64,000 nucleotides of DNA from Periplaneta americana (taxonomy: Eukaryota > Arthropoda > Insecta > Blattodea > Blattidae), in NCBI RefSeq assembly GCF_040183065.1, contig NC_091131.1, forward strand, positions 12,486,800-12,550,799, written 5' to 3'. Positions 44,601-50,600 of this stretch are shown one piece after another (the stretch's first letter is position 1; each line of letters begins with the position of its first letter). A model generated the notes under the pieces. That model saw only the letters and a list, made by a program, of their open reading frames with translations. It ran no database searches and was not told the DNA's origin. Position numbers and translations under genes: made by a program.

Positions 44601-47600
44601 GTATTCTTCACCTGACATAATTAGGAACATTAAATCCAGACGTTTGAGATGGGCAGGGCATGTAGCACGTATGGGCGAATTCAGAAATGCATATAGAGTG
44701 TTAGTTGGGAGGCCGGAGGGAAAAAGACCTTTAGGGAGGCCGAGACGTAGATGGGAGGATAATATTAAAATGGATTTGGGGGAGGTGAGATATGATGATA
44801 GAGAATGGATTAATCTTGCTCAGGATAGTGACCAATGGCGGGCTGATCTGAGGGCTGCAATGAACCTCCGGGTTCTCTAAAAGACATTTGTAAATAAGTA
44901 CGATTCGTAACAAAGTCTCAAGTATTGCATGTTTGAACATTTGTGTTCAGAGTGGAAGTCAATATACTAGCCATTAGTTCAGCAATGTGCCAGTAATCTT
45001 ACGGTTCTTCTTAATTGTCATCGTCATCATTATCATCATTATTTCTGGACTAATGTTATTGTCGCTCAGTGTCACATGCTATCTAGTCATTCTCTATTCT
45101 ATTCTCTACATTTTTCTATGCGTATTCTGAAGAAATCTAACCAAAAGTCAAAAGAATTAGTGTACAAAACCCTTGTTCGCCCAATTATGGAGCAGTAGGT
45201 TGGGATCCGTACAGACAAAACCAAATCGATTCAATAGAAAAGATCCAACGCAAGGCAGCAAAATATGTCAAAATGGGGAAGGAACATGGTGAGGAGATAG
45301 TAAAAGATTTAGGGTGGGAACTTCTCAAATCAAGGCGACGAAAAACCAGACTCATCGCATTGTTTAAGGCATAAATGGGACACAAAGCATGGACCGATAT
45401 CAATGCTAGATTAGCAACACCATCATACTTAGGAAGGACTGATCATATTAGGAAGTTTAAATGTAGAAAACAAAGAACGGCCGTGGCAAAATTTTCCTTT
45501 GTTAACTGCACAATAGTAGACTGGAACAGCTTACCTGCGGCAATCTTTCAGGGTGGTCCTCTTAAAATCAATACATTTAAGGAAAGGTTGAGAAGATTAG
45601 ACTGAAAATGTAATTGGAGGTGCAGTGTAATTATTTAAGTTGTGTCATGTAACTAATTGAGTTGATATGTAATTAATTAAAATGATATGTAATTTAGTTG
45701 ATATGTAAATAAATTAGGGTGATATGTAATTAATTAAATGATATGTAATTAAGTTGGTATGTAATTAATTAAGGTGATATGTAATTATTTAAATTGGTAA
45801 TAGTTGGGTGAAATAGAAGTACTTATAAGTTAGATTTACTTTTGCTTATCGTAGGCATTATTATAGAATAGTTTTTATTTATAGTCCTAGGTTTATTGCA
45901 TCTAATATTTATAGATTTACGTTTATTTTATTTTATTTCTTGTAATTGTAATCCTTGTGGGTCATTCCATTGTAACAAACGTTACATTCTTACATGGATT
46001 TGAACATTTAACATTTTTCTGCAGTCAACTGTAGATAAGAGCAATACTTTGGAACATACCTGGTAATAGAGGATAGTGTGAAGATTATATAGTACCAAAA
46101 ATATAATATTGTGATGGTGCATGTTCTTGGGTTTACAATTTGAAAAAATGTAACAAATGTTACATCAAAGGACATGGATTCTCAAGTTGTGAAAGACTGT
46201 TGTGATTCTCTGTTCTTACAATATTTTATGTCAGATAAAAAAAATACAGCTTGAATCTAGGAAGATTACAGAACTAAATGACATAAACGTTTTTAATTCT
46301 ACAGATGTATGTTACTTGAAAATAATTAAAAACTTAGAGTAACAAACGTTACAACAGTGTAACAAATGTTACAGAGTCAGAATTGAACAGTTTGTAAAGA
46401 ACATCCTAGTGATAATTAAAAAAAAAAAGGTAATTTTTGAGAGTACAATAACATTCTTACTCAACTAGCACAGTAAAATTTGTGTTGAAAATAAATTTTC
46501 CCCTAACTTCCTTAGGTTTAGGCAATGTGCTTAAAACTAGGTCTGGGGATATTTCATCTATATCGTCATTTGTAGGGTACACAAAGTAAGTGTTCTTTCC
46601 TTCTCTTCTTCTCATGAATTGTACACTACACATATTACTCACATAATTGAGAAGGATTATATGTCCGACATAATATTGTCCAGTTTGTGGGTAATGAACC
46701 AATACGTAATCACCAACTGATAGTTCTGAAAATTTTGAATTCATGGCATGATCAATGGAATGAGTAGATTTTGTAGGACTGCTTGTTTCTTCCTGCGTTT
46801 CTTTTATTTTATGTTTCTTAAATGGTTCAACATCTCCAGTATTTGAGAAGAGCCCAACTGTATTTGGTGCAGCAATTTTCACACATCGGGCTTGTTGGAT
46901 TCCTACCACTGGCAATGCACTTTTCCATTCTTCTACATATTTTGCAGCAATTGAGTCAATTTTACCAGCAGGGACATAAAAACAATGTATGTTGTAAATT
47001 TTAGATTTTGTGATGTCATAAAATTGCTCAGCATTTTGCACGGTAGCATTTCCTTGTAAAACTCGCTTCCATACACTGCGTTTAAGGGTAGCTCCAACAC
47101 CATCGTGTGGGCCCTTACCATGGTAAGACTCGTTATAGTTCCACTCAACATTACATCCTAGAATTTTGGATAATGTGCATAAGTATGATATTGCCTTCCG
47201 GTTTTTAAGATATGTGCAGCACCATCAGTCCACAGATAAACTGAAGTTATAGGAGACTGCTTTAATGTAGACAGGTAGTTTAGTAGGATTTCATTGAAAG
47301 CAGCAACTTCAGCAGTGCCATGACTCTGTGTATCACTAATGACTGCTAAACATATTGTTGTGACATCATCAGTAGAAGATTTTCGGAAATAGCAAACTGC
47401 AGTATAGATTGTCGTTGATGTTTCAGCTGATGTGTGTGTCCAGTGTGCTGCCATAACTTCATTCTGAAATTTTGCTACATAGTTCTCAGCAAAATCTGTT
47501 AGGAGAATCAGCTGTCCTGGTTGTAGTGATGATTTTTTATTCTGCTGTTCCTTCCATTGTCTTCTTTTATTGTATATATGATTGGATAGTTGCGTTAGCT

Positions 47601-50600
47601 GATTCTTGAAATAAGTGAAGAATTCATTTATAGACATATCTTTTTGAACCAGATGTCCACCTTCCCATTGCTTGGTGTGAACCTCATCACAGTCATCATC
47701 AATTTTTGTAATCAGCGTGGATTCAATATCTCCACATTCTTAGCAACTTCTTTTCATACAGTTCTTATTTTCAGTTTGACCAACTGTTTCTTTCAGAAGC
47801 TCCTGGATGGTTTTTGGTTTTTCACTTGTTTTCCAGGGCGCTGCTGAAATCATTAACTGCGTATTTTCACAGTAAGGGCAGCAGCACATTATCTGATCCT
47901 TATCAGAGACCAACCTGACATGTTTCGGTCGCATTTCACAAAATTTTGATAGACCAATCTTTACATTTAGATTCTGCCCTTGAAAAAGTGTGTATACTTC
48001 ACGCAAATGATATACAAGCAGTCTTTTTTGCATATATTCTTTCTTTCCATCCTCACGTATTATAATAAAATCTTTTTTTCCAGGGAGTTGCCGGGAAACA
48101 TCGTCACATTCATAAAAATCCTTCACCATTTTCATAGTATCTGCAGTAATAGACAATGTAGAAGATGTGGAATGTTTTGCTGGCTGTACTAATAGATTAA
48201 ATGATTCGGCAAGCTTTCTTACTACGGCTGTTTGTTTTCGAGGGCTCCTTGGAAGGTTTCTTTGTGCTCTTTTTATAGCCTTTCCTAAAGAATTTGCACT
48301 CTTATAAGGAGGACTTCCTGAAGAACCGTCTTTCAAAATACATGAACTTAAAACTCTTGCTTTTTGTCTTCTACGATATTCTTGTACTCGCTTCCTAGTG
48401 GCTTCTCTTTCTGCAGATTTTTCTGATTTTGATTTTGGCTTTTTCCTAAGTTTCCTCATAATATTACGACACTTTTCTAGTCTCTCTTGAGTTTTTTCTG
48501 TGTCCATTCTAGCTCTGTACTCACGCATTCTCTCAGCAGCAGATTTTGGAGCTTTTTTCATACTGAAATGCATATATGGCCCATCTAACATGAAAACGTA
48601 TTAAAACACGTCTTATTTTAAATATAGGCCTACCAAACATAGGCCATTAATCAATAATTTCATGTATTAAATCTGATTATCTTATTATTTTTTGTGTAAC
48701 AAACGTTACCACATTGTTGTGTAACTTTTGTTATTATTTAATGTAACGTTTGTTACACAGAATTTATATAAAATTATTATTTTAAAAATCAGAACGTCTA
48801 GTATTTATGTAGCTTACATGAGGAAGTAAGATAATACAAAGTTTCATTTTAAAATAAAAAACAGTTTTCTAATTATGAAATAAAATTAATATTTTTGTAA
48901 CAAACGTTACATAACCTAAGTATTTCTTTTAACAGTGGATAACTACTTTAATAGATTATATTTCCACTCATTGTTACTACATACAGGCACTGAAACAATT
49001 ACTTTCAAAGGTAATATAGCACTAACTTCATGGAATTTAATATTCTGATAGCTATGTCCTAAAATCAAATGATGTAATCTCACCAGAATCCCTCTGTAGC
49101 AGCCATGTCGACTTTGCTTGTTGGGAACAAAGAAATTATGCCGCCAAAATTAAAATTATACTATGCTGTATAAAGTCAATGAATTGGAGAATTTTTTAAT
49201 GCAAAAGAACAGTTTCTTCGATTAAATATAAAATTTTGTCTTTATGTCCCTCATCTCGTGGAATGACCCTTAAGTATATTATATATCACTGCCACCGGGT
49301 GTATACCCTGTAATGTTAATAAATACATACATACATACATTCTTTACTTGTGATTTATATTGCTAGTCTTAAACGTGTTACTATGTATTGATTGAAATTT
49401 CCTTACTGAAAATTGTATTGAGACATATAAGTCCATCGATGTCACATTGCTTGTAGTTCTCTTTCATGCCTGAAACATAAATTTAAATTATTATATTTAC
49501 TTCAATTCAGTTTAAGGTTAATTTTGTATTCAATAAAGACAAATCCATGGAATGGGAAACATGCACTAAAATCTTTACCCTGTAAGGAGTTAGGTACAGT
49601 TTACAGCAGTAAAATTTTAAAAGTTTAGGCCCTACACAATTACATGAAAGACATAAAAGTAATAAAATCAGTTGTATTATAAATTGAATTAGTCCACACA
49701 TGTGGATTAACGGTTAGCACGTCTGGCCGTGAAACCAGGTAGCCCAGGTTCGATTCCCAGTGGTGGCAAGTTTCTTAGTTGAGATTTTTTTCCGGGGTTT
49801 TCCCTCAACCCAATACGAGCAAATGCTGGGTAACTATCGGTGCTGGACTCCAGACTCATTTCACCGGCATTATCATCTTCATCTCATTCAGATGCTAAAT
49901 AACCTAAGATGTTGATAAAGCTTCGTAAACTAACCTACTAAATTAAATAAATAAATTGAATTATATTAATGAATACTATCTATGACTTTATCAATGTTAT
50001 GAACTGGCTTCTCTTTGATGTTCATTCTTTTTACTTATTCTTTTGTTTTTATTTACACCGTCGTCTATCTTGTTTATTGTAGACTTATGTTGCATTATTT
50101 TAAATAAAATCTTCAGAAAGATAAACTACATATCACTTATACTTCTAACAATTAGCAATGCTGATTTTCAGGGTGATAAATATATGTTTGCTTTCGTGCC
50201 TACCAACCAATTCTAAGAGCATTCTTTGTACATGAGACAGCTACTTTTTTAATAATCCTTAATTTCCTCGACAGCAAACAGTAAGTAATTAGAACATTAT
50301 GGAATAATTACCGACAATAGGGGTTTATTAAGATCTCGAGGACATATTAAGAAATTACATATTTTCTTCTCACTAAAAGAACTTATATTTGACAGAAAAT
50401 AAAATGGAACAGATGCATTATAGGACCCACCCTGAGTATTCCATAGTATCGATTATATATTGTATATTTTCGATTATTATATCAAGTATGCCATCTTAAC
50501 AATACTAATCAAGATGTATAATCAAGATGTGTAATCAAGATGTATAATACTAAATACGTAGTATTATAAACATGTATAATTTAATAAAACCAACAATAAT

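Follow-up and report, generated by a model that had tools for sequence, protein, structure and literature searches.

Clusters of subterminal sites are known in several groups of transposons, usually element by element. The ends of Tn7 and phage Mu bear asymmetric arrays of transposase sites at defined distances, on which an ordered synaptic complex is built; both are prokaryotic, have different transposases and carry shorter arrays than the element described below. In the hAT element Hermes, five AAGT-type sites occupy the first 55 bp of each end, the left-end sites beyond the first 50 bp are reported as not needed, and the end requirement is about 220 bp, according to the available part of the source (PMC10368747). 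Here we describe a 3311-bp DNA transposon of the cockroach Periplaneta americana, located at positions 45959–49269 of a 64,000-nucleotide stretch of contig NC_091131.1 (12,486,800 to 12,550,799 of the forward strand), which was analysed as a whole and is called the window hereafter. Like Hermes and other hAT elements, whose subterminal repeats are bound by a BED domain, it has several short subterminal sites, and these are unlike at the two ends; a fixed long-range spacing that persists from family to family, as found among the relatives of our element, is not described in the same part of PMC10368747. The geometry of the site array is conserved across these families, whereas the palindromic form of the site is not, and we consider it probable (roughly 0.7) that the sites are bound by the transposase and held at selected fixed distances in a D-D-D cut-and-paste transposon. 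No title or opening of an abstract on conserved array geometry across families was found among the open-licence papers listed by the literature searches, which is no proof that such work is absent.

The initial annotation, made from the letters of the window, had proposed an element bounded by exact 11-bp inverted ends, with seven copies of a 14-mer (four left, three right) and one decayed copy confined to its two non-coding ends. Both claims hold: GGGTCATTCCA stands at the two ends, and the sites were recovered by a match scan. The element, its ends and its sites are as follows.

45959–49269, minus strand (that of the transposase gene): whole transposon, 3311 bp, delimited by end match and alignment of genomic copies
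45959–45969, plus strand: left terminal inverted repeat, exact GGGTCATTCCA
45972–45985, plus strand: left site 1, 14 bp from the tip; exact GTAACAAACGTTAC in 27 of 30 copies
46150–46163, plus strand: left site 2, 192 bp from the tip; exact in 24 of 30 copies, with at most one mismatch in 30 of 30
46339–46352, plus strand: left site 3, 381 bp from the tip; exact in 26 of 30 copies
46359–46372, plus strand: left site 4, 401 bp from the tip; exact in 24 of 30 copies
48696–48709, plus strand: right site about 560 bp from the right tip; exact in 24 of 30 copies
48721–48734, minus strand: right site about 535 bp from the right tip, decayed in the window copy; exact in 3 of 30 copies
48743–48756, minus strand: right site about 513 bp from the right tip; exact in 27 of 30 copies
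48897–48910, plus strand: right site nearest the right tip, at about 360 bp; exact in 30 of 30 copies
49259–49269, minus strand: right terminal inverted repeat, exact GGGTCATTCCA

A DNA search of the host genome with the whole element matched 47 pieces, read as at least 40 copies, a lower bound with 40 of 101 candidates scored. Thirty loci, including the window copy (L009), were cut out as a sample of the family. The boundaries are real, because in 26 of these 30 loci, one of them the window copy, the alignment begins precisely at base 1 and stops at base 3311; the other copies are 96–99% identical to the window copy. Taken alone, the 11-mer GGGTCATTCCA is not rare (17 of 100 shuffles had two or more matches at up to one mismatch), and a search for its exact text in the open-licence literature gave no transposon paper by title among the 20 of 38 papers listed, the 11-mer presumably being part of primers there.

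The seven exact copies of GTAACAAAYGTTAC in the window begin at 45972, 46150, 46339, 46359, 48696, 48743 (minus strand) and 48897, and an eighth, with two mismatches, at 48721 (minus strand); all eight lie outside the transposase reading frames. At up to two mismatches the window holds 11 matches, two of the sites being counted on both strands and one match, at 31491, lying beyond the element; shuffled sequences averaged 1.72, and none of 100 shuffles reached 11. The site 535 bp from the right tip is indeed decayed in the window copy, as first noted, and is exact in three of the 30 loci (L031, L036 and L037) and within one mismatch in eight of them; the ancestral array had eight sites, four per end. 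This site was lost by shared changes in the subfamily that includes the window copy, and is therefore dispensable. In an internally deleted copy (L047) with about 1.9 kb between the tips, none of the eight places is missing: seven match exactly and the remaining one has two mismatches. The frequency of the 14-mer is not uniform: in the 3.23-Gb host genome (91 contigs) it occurs exactly 422 times, against 158 for the reversed pattern, and among 100 listed places many stand in clusters with the spacing of the element.

The same array recurs in related elements with other letters. Fourteen families were compared, namely five used to form the spacing rule, eight held out from the same genome, and L083 from a second assembly. 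Their left sites lie at about 13, 181–193, 368–389 and 390–404 bp from the tip. In the window family a 16-mer starts at 13, 191, 380 and 400 bp; F42, which is 27% identical to the uninterrupted genomic copy L028, has GTAACGGATGTTAC at 14, 181, 368 and 391 bp, F39 has TGTGACACACGAACAT at 13 (five mismatches), 192, 389 and 403 bp, F40 has TGTGACCTACACGACA at 14, 193, 381 and 404 bp, and F43 has TGTGACAGACACGACA at 14, 192, 379 and 402 bp. Over the 14 families the first step is 178–181 bp in 11 and 166–169 bp in three, the second step averages 187.9 bp (standard deviation 3.1), the third 21.1 bp (2.2), and the second and third together 209.1 bp (1.8). A site stands 12–15 bp from the left tip in 13 of the 14 families; in B13, where the tip letters are changed, it comes just after ATTCCA, its distance being assigned from that motif rather than measured. 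On the right, the first site is found at 356–363 bp in nine of the ten families with a right end (a sample that leaves out B10, B12, B13 and B16) and at 270 bp in B2. The next right site lies at 512–519 bp in plus orientation (A, F42, B7 and L083) or at 524–529 bp in minus orientation (F40, F43, B1 and B14), with further sites at 545 and 579 bp in F39 and one site 155 bp further in for B2.

The letters are less constant than the distances. GTnACnnAC is present in the sites of 12 of the 14 families, F42 having GTnACnnAT and L083 lacking the first AC. The initial annotation had characterised each site as an inverted repeat, GTAAC-N4-GTTAC; this is not the defining feature, because F39, F40, F43, B1 and B2 retain the positions and not the symmetry. 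Between the sites, the intervals are close to background: over 78 pairs of 13 families (B13 being outside this set) the median z against shuffles is 0.6, with z at or below 4 in 77 of the 78, and the ungapped identity of nine families read from the tip inward is 0.25–0.37 beyond the first 20 bp. The transposases of the array families are 26–37% identical to L028, some of these alignments being partial. The genome holds 670 occurrences of the tip plus site core, ATTCCATNGTNACNNAC, and 40 of the reversed pattern, the former count being partly inflated by one tandem array on C2. That array, at C2:199397581-199400341, holds about 15 of 100 listed tip-plus-core matches in steps of about 130 bp or multiples thereof, and is a tandem repeat with a transposon-end-like motif. 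Since the distances are kept while the site letters change by family, the spacing itself would appear to be under selection.

The held-out families were found with the L040 protein, to which they are 32–46% identical, and their ends were fetched after the rule had been set. Six held-out pieces were first scanned for repeats without the spacing rule, and 15 left-end pieces were then scored; in the spacing statistic the third window was at first too narrow, such that a fourth site could pass as the third, and the windows were widened once before the final scoring. Eleven of the 15 pieces passed; for every one of these, at most 1 of 200 shuffles did as well. Ten of them have steps of 166–181, 184–192 and 21–22 bp; B5 passed on its score, yet its fourth copy is no site and it holds the first three sites only. 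The 11 passing pieces amount to eight distinct site families. In all family counts, F39b, F45, F42a, L057 (next to L060), B5 and B11 (next to B2) and B19 (next to B16) were treated as second copies of a family already included; of these, B5, B11 and B19 are among the passing pieces. In F39b the threshold applied gave the left sites at 192 and 389 bp, site 1 being visible only with another form of the motif. The fetched pieces of B3, B8 and B9 contain no tip, and that of B20 has a tip of group II (described below) with no array found. Four background pieces of the window gave no array (13–86 of 200 shuffles as good), and a tile scan of the whole window at a score of 4 or more returned the element and one tandem repeat at 39–41 kb. 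This tandem-like repeat (39143–40818), which yields quadruples in the spacing scan, was taken as unrelated to the element.

L083 (JAAEPJ010000558.1) was obtained in a scan of an 84,980-species prokaryote collection with alignment A2, where one peptide pattern matched nine stretches and one relative was confirmed; scans of IMG/VR found no relatives. It is a 4028-bp contig in a 2.2-Mb bacterial metagenome-assembled genome, the only match there, and is probably stray animal contamination. It encodes a protein of 705 amino acids, whose best segment is 26% identical to L028, and has tips GGGCAATTCCAT and the site GTGTTGGACGTACAT at 13, 182, 370 and 391 bp (0–4 mismatches). Its left steps are 169, 188 and 21 bp, an arrangement for which 1 of 200 shuffles did as well, and its right sites lie at 363, 519, 540 and 554 bp. 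Its flanks carry no 4-bp duplication.

The same genome also contains a sister group (group II), represented by L041, L057/L060 and L061, and by B20 on its tip only. The tip G[GA]G[TC]nATTCCA was found in L041 (at 1005), L060 (1070), L061 (4385) and B20 (442 in the L079 piece). In an unrooted tree of 11 proteins, in which F40 and F42 have two rows each, several rows are partial and B20 is left out, L041, L060 and L061 are split from the eight array-family proteins by a branch with a support of 100/100. Group II resembles the array families in its ATTCCA-type tip and, in L041 and L060, in a similar catalytic core, but differs from them in its N-terminal region where this could be read, in having TCAAAYC instead of a site beside the left tip (L041, L060 and B20), and in that no four-site array was found in the group II pieces tested. 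L060 is borderline in this respect, with 5 of 200 shuffles as good and copies that do not start at its tip.

The transposase gene of the window copy is broken by a stop at 47740–47742 and a frameshift within 47158–47224, and falls into three parts.

47740–48591, minus strand: N-terminal part of the transposase, with a basic region and a Cys-containing region; ends at an in-frame stop
47158–47739, minus strand: middle part, with the DFAEN and DGA blocks; frame lost near its end
46457–47224, minus strand: C-terminal part, with a 10-letter block and a weakly Tudor-like tail (below the Pfam cutoff)

The protein of about 711 residues that was originally described is found intact in the relative L028, as an open frame of 711 amino acids, and not in the window copy. 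No Pfam or NCBIfam model scored above its cutoff for the transposase, and absence of a family from the rejected or empty profile lists excludes nothing; a search of PDB sequences with a single protein and with alignment A2 gave no convincing match. An alignment of seven relatives shows the blocks DFxEN, DGA and HGKGxxDGxGxxKR. The first D (DFxEN) is present in five of the seven (Y in L039, N in L060), the second (DGA) in all seven, and the third (HGKGxxDG) in six, with N in L060. The initial reading of a D..D..E/HGKG arrangement is supported for the two D residues. As the third acidic residue, the D of HGKGxxDGxG is the probable candidate, because this D is found in six of the seven proteins and the E that precedes HGKG (ESYHGKG) in two. 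In a structural model of the core, built from L083 with two window pieces as the alignment, strands and helices were read as being in an RNase H-like order, the model being weak, with a mean predicted local distance difference test score (pLDDT) of 53. All five Foldseek matches of this model at E ≤ 0.001 are retroviral integrases (best E 8.4e-5), with low template-modelling scores, so that what resembles RNase H-like integrases is a weak model of the core. An AlphaFold model of the whole L083 protein alone had a mean pLDDT of 36.6 and was not used.

Alignment of the termini, proposed earlier as the way to fix the target duplication, gave 4 bp: an exact duplication flanks 27 of the 30 copies, against matches in 10 of 270 control comparisons. 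One of the 27, L020, was scored with a one-base shift of its mutated tip; the copies without an exact duplication are L023, L035 and that of the window (L009), whose flanks are unmatched.

45955–45958, no strand: left flank TTGT, expected place of the 4-bp duplication; mismatches the right flank
49270–49273, no strand: right flank TTAA, expected place of the 4-bp duplication; mismatches the left flank

Recombination between copies, or decay, is a possible cause of this mismatch. In the window and the fetched loci, no empty site spanning both flanks of the insertion was found; the matches outside the window copy are to the right flank only and lie elsewhere in the window and in L032 and L041. 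The transposon apparently sits in the 3' end of a non-LTR (long terminal repeat) retrotransposon (window 45375–45796 and 49270–49349), read by eye from a reading frame that stops at 45605, a tandem repeat of 20 bp, and the similarity of the right flank to 22513–22574 and 35216–35275. Among related elements with both flanks read, 7 of 11 have 4-bp duplications (F39b, F40, F42b, F43, B1, B2 and B14) and F39a, F45, B7 and L083 have no matching flanks. The window element belongs to a cut-and-paste DNA transposon of fairly recent origin and is itself dead.

Target duplications also distinguish the element from several known groups. hAT elements make duplications of 8 bp, whereas here they are of 4 bp and none of the 30 copies matches over 5 bp; Sola3, piggyBac and Kolobok have TTAA duplications, and TTAA is found in none of the 27 duplications of our element. 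The Sola superfamily, as described in the available part of one source, has a DDD transposase, 4-bp duplications and terminal inverted repeats of 11–1124 bp, with animals among its hosts (PMC10741241). Our element is alike in its 4-bp duplications, its short ends (11 bp, within the range reported there) and its probable D-D-D core, and on these grounds we call it Sola-like, an unproven assignment. AWWT target duplications, given for Sola2 elements in the part of PMC3627910 that was available, account for only four of the 27. No report of spaced site arrays in Sola was found among the open-licence papers listed; PMC5199201, PMC10294476 and PMC5753468 name Sola among superfamilies and, in their available parts, give no site arrays.

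The initial suggestion of a transposase with clustered binding sites fits the exact ends, the duplications, the conserved array and the weak RNase H-like model, with binding itself proposed from sequence. In the mechanism that we favour, an RNase H-like D-D-D core would cut at the GGGTCATTCCA ends, leaving 4-bp target duplications. The eight subterminal sites would most likely be bound by the N-terminal basic region of the transposase itself, given that the N-terminal region of the sister group differs where read. Several transposase molecules would then sit at fixed distances, at about 13, 192, 380 and 402 bp on the left and, on the right, at about 358 bp followed by one or more sites at about 512–580 bp. 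With unlike arrays at the two ends, the synaptic complex would be asymmetric and the DNA from one site to the next looped or wrapped; the distance between sites would matter for assembly. The right array, which lies 105–320 bp upstream of the start of the transposase, may in addition have a role in regulating the gene. Helical phasing of the sites was considered and set aside, the test being weak and its outcome hanging on the assumed period.

Several observations weigh against this mechanism. The families share an ancestor and hence are not independent, and stretches of up to about 50 bp beside the tips or sites do align between some of them. The geometry has exceptions: the first step is 166–169 instead of 178–181 bp in F42, B1 and L083, the second and third steps are 197 and 14 bp in F39, the first right site of B2 is at 270 instead of about 358 bp, and F45 lacks left site 3, with left sites only at 14, 193 and 395 bp. 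B5 has no site 4, site 3 of B2 is weak (B11, of the same family, has all four), and the window's subfamily has lost the eighth site; together with the missing site 3 of F45, these cases imply that some sites are dispensable. The tip site of F39 differs at five of 16 letters from the other F39 sites. The structural model is poor, the Foldseek template-modelling scores are low, and a second aligner, VIA-align, ranks unrelated folds first: its top integrase comes below two designed proteins, an Argonaute and a nitrogenase, and no specific relative emerges. Finally, a host protein instead of the transposase could be the binder of the sites.

The last point can be developed into a distinct explanation, in which a host transcription factor or repressor binds the sites for expression or silencing of the element, the right array being the main one. 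The location of the right sites 105–320 bp upstream of the start codon would suit such a role, and a palindromic 14-mer such as GTAACAAACGTTAC resembles the site of a dimeric factor. However, the most regular geometry is that of the left array, the more remote of the two from the start of the gene, the site beside the left tip in 13 of the 14 families (and just after ATTCCA in B13) points to transposition, and letters that differ among families of one genome would be better explained by a changing element-encoded reader; we regard a host factor as unlikely. Still less probable is that the geometry was merely inherited, the families being too close for insertions and deletions to have accumulated and the spacing having no function. 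All families do look homologous, with a common tip and site core, and here and there short stretches next to tips and sites can still be aligned, but the intervals are near background identity (z at or below 4 in 77 of 78 pairs), and unselected DNA as diverged as transposases of 26–37% identity to L028 imply would be expected to have gained many insertions and deletions.

A nucleosomal origin of the spacing has somewhat better prospects than either, although we doubt it as the leading explanation. Here the arrays would mark nucleosome linkers, with the spacing of about 180–190 bp set by positioned nucleosomes and the transposase reading the ends as chromatin. On the left, the first two steps (about 178 and 188 bp) come near the length of a nucleosome repeat, which is suggestive only, and the distance to the first right site, about 358 bp, corresponds to two steps; the intervals are poor in G+C (0.27), the site blocks being richer (0.38–0.41). 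A strict repeat is nevertheless broken by steps of 154–169 bp and 21 bp and by the first step of 166–169 bp in three families. Nucleosome positioning is compatible with transposase-bound sites at selected distances and not exclusive of them. Indeed, we tentatively raise a broader view that joins the two, for which the odds are still well below even: a group of animal transposases may read a ruler and not a fixed sequence, the letters being re-coded by family, perhaps blocking cross-mobilisation, and the nucleosome-length steps reflecting a transpososome built on chromatinised ends.

The arrangement of these arrays is of interest both for the mechanism of transposition and for the annotation of mobile elements. 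With 14 families that keep near-equal site distances despite changed letters and unalignable intervals, the spacing becomes a testable code for the assembly of a eukaryotic transpososome. The array families also form a natural series of what may be orthogonal pairs of site and reader, and their geometry offers a way to recognise such elements, non-autonomous ones included.

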